This document shows, one piece after another, positions 1,592 to 41,782 of a DNA stretch of 64,000 bases. The first letter of the stretch is position 1; every line of letters begins with the position of its first letter. The stretch is taken from the NCBI RefSeq assembly GCF_009497155.1, contig NZ_WINI01000001.1, positions 620,001 through 684,000 on the forward strand, given 5' to 3'. The DNA comes from Glaciimonas soli (GTDB taxonomy: Bacteria > Pseudomonadota > Gammaproteobacteria > Burkholderiales > Burkholderiaceae_D). The notes below the pieces were generated by a model that saw nothing but the letters and a program-made list of their open reading frames with translations, was not told the DNA's origin and made no database searches. The position numbers and the translations under genes are program-made.

Positions 1592-2806
1592 CTAAGGCTT
1601 AAGTGGTTTTGACACATCTTGCAAAATTTCCCTGTCAATTATTTTGCCCTGTGCCATCCAACGCTTGGCGACTTTGATATCGCGGCCGTTATTCAAAGCA
1701 ATCGCGCTACACAACACATCATCTTTGAAGAAAAATAACGTGGCATTTGCAGCGTCAAGATCGCCTCGCACGACCACTTCTGCATCTGCTGGTGCGAATC
1801 CTAAAATTTGCAGATTCAAATCATATTGATCCGACCAAAACCACGGTGCCTCGGCATGAATCTCATCACTGCCAAGCATCGCTTTAGCAACGACGACTGC
1901 CTGATTTTGGGCGTTCGCCCAAGACTCCAGACGCAAACGACCATCTGACAAATGATGCGGTTGGTTAGCAACATCGCCACAAGAGAAAATCAGTGAATCG
2001 GACGTACGGCCTTGGTTATCCACCACTATGCCGTTATCCACCTCCAGGCCACATGTCAACGCCAGGTCAACGTTGGGTGTTTGACCGATACCAGCAACGA
2101 CGACATCAGCTGTCAAAACGCTACCGTCTTTTAATTGCACCGAAATCGTTCCATCAAGGTCGGATAAGTTTTCCAGTTGCGAGTTAAGCAGAATCTTTAC
2201 GCCATTTTTTTCGTGCAGGGCTTGCAGCACAGCGGAAATCTGTAATGGCGCAGCGCGTGCGCATAGTCGTTCAAATGCCTCGACAACCGTGACCTCCAAT
2301 CCCAACTTGCGCGCAGTGGCAGCCACTTCCAAGCCAATCCAGCCACCACCAATCACTACCAATTGGCGCTTGCCGTCCAATGCCACCCGCAATGCGCTTG
2401 CGTCACTCAGTGTGCGCAGATAATGAACATGAGCATTGTTCGTGACACCTTCAGATAATCTGCGTGCCTCACCGCCGGTGGCCAGCACCAATTGATCGTA
2501 GTTCACGCTGCGGCTACTGCGACAATGCACGGTACGTGTAATCCGATCTATGCTGATAGCTTCGTCTGGCTGGATGCATTCAACGTTAAGTGCTTGAAAT
2601 TCTTCGTCAGAAATCAGCTGAACGGAGCTCAGCGATGCCGTGCCAGCTAATACCGCTTTCGATAGCGGCGGCCGCTCATAAGGCGCATGCGGTTCGGCTG
2701 CGATCATCAGCAAACGACCGGCAAAGCCTTCTGCCCGCAAGGTTTTCAACACCCAGCCAGCTGCCTGGCCACCGCCAATGACAACAATTGTGTTTGGCTT
2801 TTCCAT
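1592..2806 (-). CDS. FAD-dependent ferredoxin reductase of Rieske oxygenase system
   Basis: A 404-residue pyridine-nucleotide-disulfide-type reductase of the BphA4/HcaD/rhodocoxin-reductase class. It has an N-terminal FAD motif (GGGQAAG at 11-17), the PYERPPLSK segment typical of this class, a second dinucleotide motif for NAD(P)H (GGGWIGLE at 153-160) and the FAD ribityl motif CGDVA at 276-280. It would pass electrons from NAD(P)H to the Rieske ferredoxin encoded at 13472-13771, which feeds the oxygenase at 11957-13036. It starts 4 bp after the stop of the VOC gene, so the two are probably translationally coupled. The exact electron partner is inferred from the shared operon. Confidence 0.88.
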   Translation of the reverse strand: MEKPNTIVVIGGGQAAGWVLKTLRAEGFAGRLLMIAAEPHAPYERPPLSKAVLAGTASLSSVQLISDEEFQALNVECIQPDEAISIDRITRTVHCRSSRSVNYDQLVLATGGEARRLSEGVTNNAHVHYLRTLSDASALRVALDGKRQLVVIGGGWIGLEVAATARKLGLEVTVVEAFERLCARAAPLQISAVLQALHEKNGVKILLNSQLENLSDLDGTISVQLKDGSVLTADVVVAGIGQTPNVDLALTCGLEVDNGIVVDNQGRTSDSLIFSCGDVANQPHHLSDGRLRLESWANAQNQAVVVAKAMLGSDEIHAEAPWFWSDQYDLNLQILGFAPADAEVVVRGDLDAANATLFFFKDDVLCSAIALNNGRDIKVAKRWMAQGKIIDREILQDVSKPLKP

Positions 2807-39612: not shown

Positions 39613-40590
39613 CTATTTTTTTGTGTAGTCTTGCGCATCGCTTGATTTCAACGCTGCGCCGCTCGGCATAGTGACGTTATTGGATTTTTCAATCGCGCCG
39701 CGAATCTCTTCTATCGCCTTCTCTATATCCACATCGTCAAATGCATCAGTCTCGTCGGTGGCCGAAATGCGCGGGGCCTGAATTGTCGTGGTTAAACTGC
39801 CAATTGGCAAGGTGTGTGTCGCTATTGATGTCAAAGGATCATCTATATTGCCATTGCTGCCCCACGCCAATGCCAATGCAGTGACATTATCGCTGTGTTT
39901 GCCGGCAATACCAACCGCACTCGAAATCAAATCAGGGACCGCACGTACTATCGTATTGCTTTGCAAACGTTGCGCCATCAAATGATCTGGCAACATCGAC
40001 CACAGTCCGTCCGAACACAGTAACATCACGTCACCGGCCTGCAGGCTGACACGGCGCGAGAGTTCGACCATTGGCATATTGGTCGCGCCCAGACAATTAA
40101 ATAACTTATTCCGATCAGGATGCGTCGCGCGTTCCGATGGATCGACTTTGCCCTGCGCAATTAAGGTTTCTATCCGCGAGTGATCACGCGTACGCGCCAA
40201 AATCTGCCCCTGTCGCATCCAGTACAAACGCGAATCGCCGCAGTGCGCCCAAAACGCACTGTTGTGCTGAATCAGACAGGCAACTACCGTGGTCCTTGGC
40301 GTTTCGGCCAGTTTATGCACTTCGTGGAAACGATGAATTTCCATATGAGCAGCAATAAAACTGTCCTCCAAAAACCGTTCTGGTTTTTTGATATAAGGCT
40401 GAGCATTTTTTTGGAATAACGCACCGATGGTTTGCATCGCAATATTTGCCGCGATTTCCCCATGCAAATGACCGCCCATGCCATCCGTTAATAACAATAA
40501 CAACGCATCGCGTGTAAAGCTATAACCCATTCGATCTTGATTGACTTTACGGCCGCCAATGTGGCTTTCTTGATAAACAGAAAATCGCAT
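39613..40590 (-). CDS. PP2C-type Ser/Thr protein phosphatase
   Basis: 325 residues with PPM-family metal motifs: NQDRMG (D20), LTDGMGGHLHGE (D36, G37), HCGDSRLY (about 116-123), LLCSDGLWSM and SDNVTALAL. It removes phosphate from Ser/Thr in an Mn/Mg-dependent manner. The C-terminal 80 residues after the PP2C fold are low-complexity and acidic (TDAFDDVDIEKAIEEI). It is paired with the kinase gene upstream and probably counteracts it. The 166-bp gap between the two genes is filled mostly by a palindromic element. Confidence 0.93.
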   Translation of the reverse strand: MRFSVYQESHIGGRKVNQDRMGYSFTRDALLLLLTDGMGGHLHGEIAANIAMQTIGALFQKNAQPYIKKPERFLEDSFIAAHMEIHRFHEVHKLAETPRTTVVACLIQHNSAFWAHCGDSRLYWMRQGQILARTRDHSRIETLIAQGKVDPSERATHPDRNKLFNCLGATNMPMVELSRRVSLQAGDVMLLCSDGLWSMLPDHLMAQRLQSNTIVRAVPDLISSAVGIAGKHSDNVTALALAWGSNGNIDDPLTSIATHTLPIGSLTTTIQAPRISATDETDAFDDVDIEKAIEEIRGAIEKSNNVTMPSGAALKSSDAQDYTKK

Positions 40591-40627
40591 GCAAATTCTT
40601 TAGTTGATATATTAATCGGCGCTTACC

Positions 40628-40758
40628 AGACTCCTTTCGAAACCGTAGCGAGCGGGTCAAGATTATGCCGACGATGTTAAAACCTTGCAGCCGTACCCAG
40701 GTACGGTGAGCATCACAGACGCAATCTTGATTCTCGCAGTAGGTTACAAAAGAAGTCT
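40628..40758. mobile_element. MITE-like long palindromic element
   Basis: A 131-bp imperfect palindrome with 17-bp terminal inverted repeats (AGACTCCTTTCGAAACC at the left; the reverse complement of the right end reads AGACTTCTTTTGTAACC, 14 of 17 identical). Internal arms GCGAG and TCAAGATT pair with AATCTTGA and CTCGC, and the centre is the perfect hairpin CCGTACC-CA-GGTACGG (40691-40706). It encodes nothing and overlaps the kinase stop codon. The shape suggests a miniature inverted-repeat element or a mobile RNA hairpin. Confidence 0.6.
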
Positions 40759-41782
40759 ACTGGGTGTTCTCTTGAATCATCGTATTCAACGGCGCTTCTT
40801 GCTTGCGAAGCATGGAGCGGAAATCTAAATGGGTAAAAAACATGCCACGCACTTTGCGTTTCACTTGATCAGTCAGCGTGACCTTTTCTTCTACCACTGG
40901 CATCGCTAATGCTCTTTGCAAGGCAAACACACTTTGCGGGCGCTGCATCGGGTCTAACATCAGACTCCAACGCACTACCTGAATTAATTCGGCAGAATAG
41001 ATACCCTCTAATTTACGCAAATGCCCTTCCATCTTGTCACTGGTTTTACGCTGATCCGCTGGTTGCGGAGGTGCGCCCACCATACAGGCAAAAATCGATG
41101 CACCTATACTGTAAATGTCTGTCCACGGCCCCAGATTGCCATTTCTTTCATACAGCTCGATCGGCGCGAAGCCCGGCGTATACATGGGATAAAGCTTAGG
41201 TGCATCAGTGCGCAAAGTCTGTCTGGCAGCACCGAAGTCGAGCAAAATCGGCGTGCCGTCAGCACGCAAATAAATATTCGCTGGCTTCAAATCCAGATGT
41301 AGCAACTTATGCGTATGCACTTCGCGCAAGCCGTTCATCACATGGCGAAACATCTTGCGGATAAATTTCTCGGATACCAGCGGCTTCTCGCCCTTCTCAC
41401 GGCGTCGCACAATATGTTCTTGTAGTGAGCGACCAGACTCATACGCCATCACCATGTAGACTGTTTCATTAGCGCGAAAGAAATTCAAGACGCTGACCAC
41501 ATTGGGATGCGTAATATTGGCTAATGCACGGCCCTCTTCAAAAAAACACTTCAGACCGATGCGAAAAGTCGGCAGATTTTCCGGAGGAATCGCAGGTGCC
41601 AGCTCGCCCCATTGACGTAATGCCAATGAACTTGGCAAATATTCTTTAATCGCAACCGCATTGCCATCTTCGTCATACGCGAGGTACACAATACTGAAGC
41701 CACCGGATGCAATCTTCTTTACAATGCGATATCCCGCAATTTTGAGCCCATCGGGCAATGGGGCATTATTTTGTGCAGCCAT
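40757..41782 (-). CDS. Serine/threonine protein kinase
   Basis: 341 residues, a cytoplasmic eukaryotic-like kinase without a transmembrane or PASTA region. The Gly-rich loop is ASGGFSIVYLA (about 25-35), the ATP-anchoring Lys is K46 (AIKEYLP), the catalytic loop is HLDLKPANIYL (D164) and the metal loop is LDFGAAR (D182). The catalytic loop has HLD in place of HRD, so this is a non-RD-type kinase. The C-terminal 60 residues are basic (DQVKRKVRGMFFTHLDF). It is encoded upstream of a PP2C phosphatase, a typical reversible-phosphorylation pair. Confidence 0.93.
   Translation of the reverse strand: MAAQNNAPLPDGLKIAGYRIVKKIASGGFSIVYLAYDEDGNAVAIKEYLPSSLALRQWGELAPAIPPENLPTFRIGLKCFFEEGRALANITHPNVVSVLNFFRANETVYMVMAYESGRSLQEHIVRRREKGEKPLVSEKFIRKMFRHVMNGLREVHTHKLLHLDLKPANIYLRADGTPILLDFGAARQTLRTDAPKLYPMYTPGFAPIELYERNGNLGPWTDIYSIGASIFACMVGAPPQPADQRKTSDKMEGHLRKLEGIYSAELIQVVRWSLMLDPMQRPQSVFALQRALAMPVVEEKVTLTDQVKRKVRGMFFTHLDFRSMLRKQEAPLNTMIQENTQ

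Follow-up and report, generated by a model that had tools for sequence, protein, structure and literature searches.

The kinase–phosphatase locus of Glaciimonas soli raises the question of whether the palindrome between the two genes is a mobile element that entered the operon or a fixed regulatory structure belonging to it. We analyzed a stretch of 64,000 nucleotides (hereafter the window), in which a first-pass annotation made from the letters alone had interpreted the palindrome as an inserted miniature inverted-repeat element (MITE) that may act as an RNA structure changing the kinase-to-phosphatase ratio. The features of the locus are listed in Table 1.

Table 1. Features of the kinase–phosphatase locus in window coordinates.
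Feature	Position	Strand	Basis
PP2C-type Ser/Thr phosphatase gene, 325 aa, PF13672	39613..40590	-	
Remaining 37 nt between element and phosphatase start	40591..40627	-	
Element, imperfect long hairpin, MITE-like	40628..40758	+ (model strand, opposite to the kinase/phosphatase mRNA)	sequence, fold, covariance model
Left 17-bp arm AGACTCCTTTCGAAACC	40628..40644	+	inverted-repeat comparison
Central hairpin GCCGTAC-CCAG-GTACGGT, helix well conserved in the family	40690..40707	+	
Right 17-bp arm, 14/17 identical to left arm, abuts kinase stop codon	40742..40758	-	
Kinase stop codon TAG, overlaps right end of element	40757..40759	-	
Ser/Thr protein kinase gene, 341 aa, Pkinase PF00069	40757..41782	-	

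The palindrome and its imperfect terminal inverted repeats were found as described. A search of the window with the arm returned matches with 0 and 3 mismatches, where 0.11 would be expected by chance. The + strand RNA of the element folds at -44.4 kcal/mol, far better than shuffled sequences (z = -3.95, none of 200 as good), and the mRNA (-) strand from kinase stop to phosphatase start (40591-40759) folds at -54.0 (z = -3.65, one of 200 shuffles as good). When the element alone is considered, this copy folds more stably on the - strand (-50.7) than on the + strand (-44.4). Some details of the description had to be adjusted. The central hairpin is present but falls slightly short of perfection, as one of its seven pairs is G-T. 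The kinase stop codon, which had been placed inside the element, overlaps it by the last two bases of the arm. Finally, the element does not fill the intergenic space, as 37 of 166 nt remain before the phosphatase ATG.

A covariance model of the family (R1), for which the window copy was one of the eight copies used in building, matched 40639-40747 with 79.2 bits, the sole match in the window at E ≤ 1. The window copy is atypical: in place of the 5′ (upper) inner-loop motif it has a stretch that is longer by about 10 nt, a variant common to one other copy of the same genome (L002/L106). The element is short, 131 bp with 17-bp arms, and the listing of open reading frames started at 100 aa. The phosphatase has Stp1/IreP as its best NCBIfam match, with 162.9 bits under a cut-off of 230. 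An intrinsic terminator was considered and rejected, as no - strand terminator site lies at the element and no U-tract follows the hairpin in the mRNA sense; a terminator-type site on the + strand, at 40737-40762, runs antisense to the operon. No sigma-70-like promoter was found in 40400-41000, and the Rfam 15 covariance models gave no match at E ≤ 1 in window positions 40000-41500.

The site was then compared with its counterparts in relatives. Eighty loci were fetched, 79 of which hold both genes, and none of these 79 carries the element between kinase and phosphatase; three weak R1 matches all lie elsewhere in the loci. The gap between the two genes is 166 nt here, whereas in the 79 relatives its median is 19 nt and the longest measures 145 nt. 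In the closest named kinase relative found, Collimonas antrihumi (88% identity), the kinase ends with the same terminal residues, judged by translation, and is followed by 96 nt of other sequence. Thus, because no copy occupies this site in 79 relatives, the window copy is an insertion, and the pattern that had been named as speaking for a fixed structure, a single copy conserved here in all relatives, was not seen. Sites free of the element were likewise found for six other copies of the same genome: none of 20 orthologous regions in congeners had an R1 match. The gap lay within 25 nt of the empty-site gap in eight of these regions and held 44-396 nt of other sequence in the remaining 12, so that gap divergence between congeners is large. 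At three copies with a gene at their right end (L097, L101 and L110) the gene-side homology reaches within 2 nt of the element, and the native gene end was therefore kept.

Further copies, for which the annotation had proposed a search, are present both in the genome itself and in relatives. In the source genome (G000, 4.27 Mb in 30 contigs), blastn gave ten rows, including the window copy and two rows at one spot. The covariance model gave 21 rows at E ≤ 1, corresponding to 19 distinct places (E ≤ 2.3e-4); the other two rows are the second strand of a perfect palindrome (L103/L112) and one weak row (E 0.8). In this search 150 of 418 candidates were scored. R1 matched 23 genomes in a set of 60 made up of the source genome and relatives, and 43 in a sample of 300 from Burkholderiales that likewise included the source genome, in many families. 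As limited numbers of candidates were scored per genome, copy numbers are lower bounds.

The family was not found in Rfam or in the open-access literature searched, where five core strings, one strand each, had no occurrence. Rfam also gave no match on the cores of six other copies. At the right edge of one copy of the source genome (L096) there is a match to RF02837 (anti-hemB, Burkholderia RNA 7) at 1609-1717 (- strand), with 45 bits slightly under the gathering score of 49.5. Another place in this genome (L013, G000:C26:22543) holds a palindrome that is shorter and differs in its interior but has an arm of this kind (AGACTTCTTTCCAAACCGTAG). Tandem arrays were seen elsewhere, with four copies in L320 (G182:C9:133697-134183) and three in L162 (G009:C139), their starts about 125-240 bp apart. 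One genome, G102, has 227 arm-like sites (≤2 mismatches) in 3.4 Mb, a very heavy element load that makes it a good place for studying active movement.

The footprints of transposition differ between lineages. In a distant genus (G249 and G102) 18 copies were read, two of them without full flanks and several with a gene called on one side only. Sixteen cores average 88% pairwise identity and some are identical. Identical 4-mers lie exactly outside the 17-bp arms in 7 of the 16 copies with full flanks (CAAT, ATCT, AAAT, AGTT, ATTC, AAAA and CGAA), compared with 2.5% in a cross-paired control. In a second lineage, G021, a 5-mer repeat occurs near the ends of 8 of 24 copies, where 0.7 were expected. 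Searching this genome with the arm led to an IS5-family insertion sequence of 1258 bp, present in eight copies with ends GG..ACCTC.AA.AACC. Its transposase matches NF033581 with 271.6 bits (cut-off 140), and seven of the eight copies have identical 4-bp flanks (TTAA, ATGA, ATAA, TTGA, TTAA, GGAA and TGAA).

The direct repeats that the annotation had proposed to look for thus exist in these lineages, but not in the source genome, where none of 19 copies had them (no excess over a cross-pair control) and the window copy has no clean one. Neither was an excess seen in G009 (5-mers 0 of 42; 4-mers 6 vs 4.4 expected) or in 37 copies of other genomes (5-mers 0; 4-mers 6 vs 3.6 expected). No mobilising transposase was found in the source genome, and no insertion sequence was matched to the arms of the window copy. 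Relatives of the G021 transposase at E ≤ 1e-20 are absent from both G000 and G009, and the 58 arm sites of G009 include no inverted pair at IS-like spacing. Outer arms differ between lineages, a difference for which a single transposase cannot account. REP/RAYT was rejected as the mobiliser, since Y1_Tnp genes occur in 46 of 60 genomes, namely in 20 of the 23 that carry the element and in 26 of the 37 that lack it. The short hairpin downstream of groEL in the source genome had suggested that a core inserts into pre-existing hairpins, which would then form the variable arms; we did not adopt this idea, as the direct repeats lie outside the arms in the mobile lineages. In G249, three copies (L302, L307 and L308) have an intact left arm, while their right side runs into another sequence that they share (TATTGATCCGGCAAT and similar). 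They may represent a composite element or a larger one.

Taken together, the ends, the copies, the element-free sites and the target duplications in two lineages identify a MITE family, and this family is mobile. The view of the palindrome as a mobile miniature element is supported by the copies, the empty sites and the duplications elsewhere. Our reading, which we consider very probable, is that the family is non-autonomous and Burkholderiales-wide, that the window copy inserted at the kinase stop codon, and that copies at stop codons have been retained with a hairpin that is useful or harmless there.

To describe where copies sit relative to genes, we read 122 of them, i.e. 49 plus 83 matches minus ten rows. 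Dropped were four rows fetched twice (L118, L138, L124, L140), one identical to L133 (L216), one near a contig end (L128), one incomplete (L225) and the second-strand matches of L103, L096 and L156. The set covers 42 of at least 68 copies in G009 and 24 of 25 in G021. Genes were called by our own codon-usage caller and not taken from annotation; genomes without their own training stretch, as well as two rows lacking a genome label (L136 and L137), were scored with the codon model of another genome, and loci L240-L250 were used solely in the first training of the caller.

In 58 of 122 copies, the window copy among them, the stop codon of an element-facing gene falls -3..+6 nt from the right end; in 3 it falls equally near the left end. 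A random intergenic point would give 1-2.6% per orientation. By set, the right/left counts are 5/0 of 19 in the source genome, 26/1 of 42 in G009, 7/1 of 24 in G021 and 20/1 of 37 in others. When groEL (four rows of one orthologous locus) was counted once and the tandem array (three rows) was excluded, 55 right and 3 left of 116 remained. In the G249/G102 genus, only 1 of 18 copies lies at a stop, a diverged one, again with its right end. Older copies tend to sit exactly at gene ends in one orientation.

Such placement could arise from the target taste of the transposase, if it prefers NTRA-like sites and no selection acts on orientation. The 4-bp flanks of the G021 insertion sequence are compatible with this, and several copies have duplicated the stop codon itself on the far side (CTAG in L107, L131 and L224; TTGA in L171 and L182). 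However, the stop-like duplications in G021, as we read them, occur on either strand, yet those at real stops are at the right end in seven and at the left end in one of 24 copies, and duplications in G249/G102 are varied, with the single stop placement mentioned above. We therefore regard target taste as a doubtful explanation of the one-way placement. Retention of copies in the favored orientation, as in our preferred reading, would account for it.

Next, we examined the structure of the hairpin. In G009, 37 copies align gap-free and share a six-helix structure in which 94.9% of 1554 cells are paired, compared with 82.0% after shuffling and at most 42.3% when slid; as the structure was derived from the same sequences, it is favored over the slid controls, and as copies are related by descent, the cells are not independent events. 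Double changes were found at 30 of 42 pairs, with a covariation score of 0.415 vs 0.169. Similarly, 13 copies of G021 have 97.0% of cells paired vs 83.6% when shuffled, double changes at 26 of 43 pairs and a covariation score of 0.451 vs 0.175. In a 2-bp helix between two inner loops, A-U is changed to U-A in 5 of 37 G009 copies with the neighbors unchanged. Between the helices lie near-constant motifs, around GTAGCGAGC, GAGAAGCGCA, GAGCATCGCA and GCGCAGTAG, and a GTAG motif is present at both inner arm ends on the same strand. These results indicate that copies diverge in sequence yet keep the hairpin through paired changes.

We also asked on which strand the hairpin folds. With a strand-neutral structure, G-U cells outnumber A-C cells on the + strand in four sets (77:45, 23:10, 28:8 and 21:9), with 12:15 in the fifth, and in 99 of 122 copies it is the + strand that folds more stably as RNA. 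However, when the G009 structure was derived from the other strand, G-U exceeded A-C there instead (67:34), so this strand signal is not robust. It hints weakly at folding on the strand opposite the upstream mRNA.

A folding strand of defined polarity would suit a single-stranded DNA element like REP/RAYT or an integron attC site, for which a tyrosine recombinase would recognise the folded top strand and the asymmetry would set the orientation. Unpaired conserved positions at fixed spacing, GTAG at both inner arm ends, one-way placement at stops and the two + strand tendencies just described could all be read in this manner. We nevertheless consider this quite unlikely, as the clearly mobile lineages have 4-bp target duplications and IS5-type ends, the G-U signal reverses with the other-strand structure, and Y1-transposase genes do not track the element. 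Identity with integron attC was itself considered informally, from the attC boxes, and dropped.

A conserved copy was found downstream of groEL (assigned by NCBIfam). In the congeners G001, G003 and G004 it follows the groEL stop codon, and among them the element is 92-94% identical, compared with 68-80% for the adjacent non-coding sequence and 92-94% for the 3′ part of groEL. Two compensatory changes were seen, G-C to A-U in a small helix (G004) and G-U to C-G (G003). In G002 a hairpin occupies the same site, but its lower stem has been rewritten into a paired one and the lower inner loop has been lost. The source genome carries only a short hairpin after groEL (L349), whose outer arms are similar to those of the 130-bp hairpin of the congeners; either the core has been lost here or the site predates the insertion. 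With a conservation equal to that of the preceding gene, the groEL copy is a strong candidate for a working element.

Could the kinase–phosphatase palindrome, then, be a fixed ancestral regulatory RNA of this operon that was never mobile? A fixed, conserved copy does exist at another locus, after groEL, in congeners, and the strong fold on both strands together with the co-varying family structure would also agree with such an RNA. This explanation is nonetheless highly improbable: the site lacks the element in 79 of 79 relatives, the genome holds it at 19 places, and target duplications accompany it in G249/G102. An ancestral feature at this site is already refuted for the relatives examined, and recent exaptation is possible.

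Alternatively, the paired changes may result only from intrastrand template switching, in which one arm is copied onto the other, in a MITE that decays neutrally. One copy of the source genome, L103 (G000:C29:232491-232589), has become a perfect palindrome over about 60 nt at its centre, as expected from such switching, and the loss of an inner loop for a paired stem at the G002 groEL site fits as well. In most copies, though, the inner loops are unpaired and conserved, and single pairs were swapped while their neighbors stayed unchanged, both in the 2-bp helix of G009 and in the groEL helix of G004. Neutral decay moreover predicts neither the 58:3 orientation at stops nor the identity of the element after groEL. 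We thus find this account unlikely, and return to a mobile family in which some copies are kept.

For that family the following course of events can be proposed. Its members have inverted arms of about 17 bp and, in at least two lineages, are moved with 4-bp target duplications of the kind left by a DDE transposase; the ends in one of the two match those of an IS5-family insertion sequence. The window copy would have inserted between the two genes, at the stop codon of the kinase, once its lineage had separated from the relatives examined, and the kinase would thus have kept its native stop. Copies at stop codons in this orientation would have been retained, their hairpin being useful or harmless in the 3′ untranslated or intercistronic part of the mRNA, where it probably alters processing or decay as ERIC does. 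At the window site this may uncouple the kinase portion of the mRNA from the phosphatase portion. A change of the kinase-to-phosphatase ratio through RNA structure, as the annotation had suggested, is plausible by this analogy; purely by inference from ERIC, the effect might be less kinase mRNA relative to phosphatase mRNA, or uncoupled translation.

ERIC is the nearest precedent. The passages on these elements (also IRU) in PMC2229807 and PMC10969869 describe 127-bp repeats of enterobacteria that form long stem-loop transcripts, lie between genes or at 3′ ends and are co-transcribed. In Yersinia, according to the same passages, ERIC at the 3′ end of a gene alters mRNA decay with orientation being crucial, and reviews report an orientation-dependent destabilisation of the upstream transcript. 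The long stem-loop and the intergenic or 3′-end placement are common to both families. By these descriptions, the present family differs in belonging to another order (the nearest relatives of the source genome are Burkholderiales, not enterobacteria) and in having arms of 17 bp, duplications of 4 bp in lineages where it moves, and a core that combines conserved inner loops with co-varying stems; ERIC is listed with 7-bp terminal inverted repeats and TA termini in the relevant part of PMC2229807.

Other known systems resemble the family in part. With IS5-family insertion sequences and their derived MITEs it shares the arms of G021, which match IS5-family ends, and the 4-bp duplications; unlike them, it has a structured hairpin as its interior, which recurs across many families of the order while the arms vary by lineage. 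REP, REPIN and RAYT systems likewise consist of intergenic palindromes with copy numbers in the tens or higher, and GTAG REPs often supply the TAG stop codon of flanking reading frames, as stated in a part of PMC3733652. GTAG occurs in our element too, but here as a single 130-bp unit whose two ends carry GTAG on one and the same strand, with target duplications in the mobile lineages and without a tie to Y1-transposase genes. QMITE2 of Coxiella burnetii, as summarized in PMC10969869, is similarly a bacterial MITE at gene 3′ ends, mainly in 3′ untranslated regions. It has other dimensions (7-9 bp repeats, 23-29 bp terminal inverted repeats and a 113-145 bp core), and that summary of QMITE2 mentions neither a stop-codon register nor one-way orientation (PMC10969869).

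One-way retention at stops and conservation after groEL argue that some copies work at gene ends, which suggests that they have been put to use by their hosts. By analogy with ERIC, a role at gene 3′ ends would be the best reading. A more far-reaching idea, which we put forward tentatively as a possibility, is that the mobile hairpin has been domesticated order-wide as a portable gene-end module: the transposase would bring it to stop-like sites, selection would keep the orientation, and a host factor would read the inner loops, in RNA or in folded single-stranded DNA, and act on the 3′ end of the gene. This family offers many insertions in which to count placement, orientation and structure, and younger copies in one genus serve as a control. 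The old question of a regulatory role for bacterial MITEs and REP-like palindromes, as opposed to their being junk, thus becomes directly testable.
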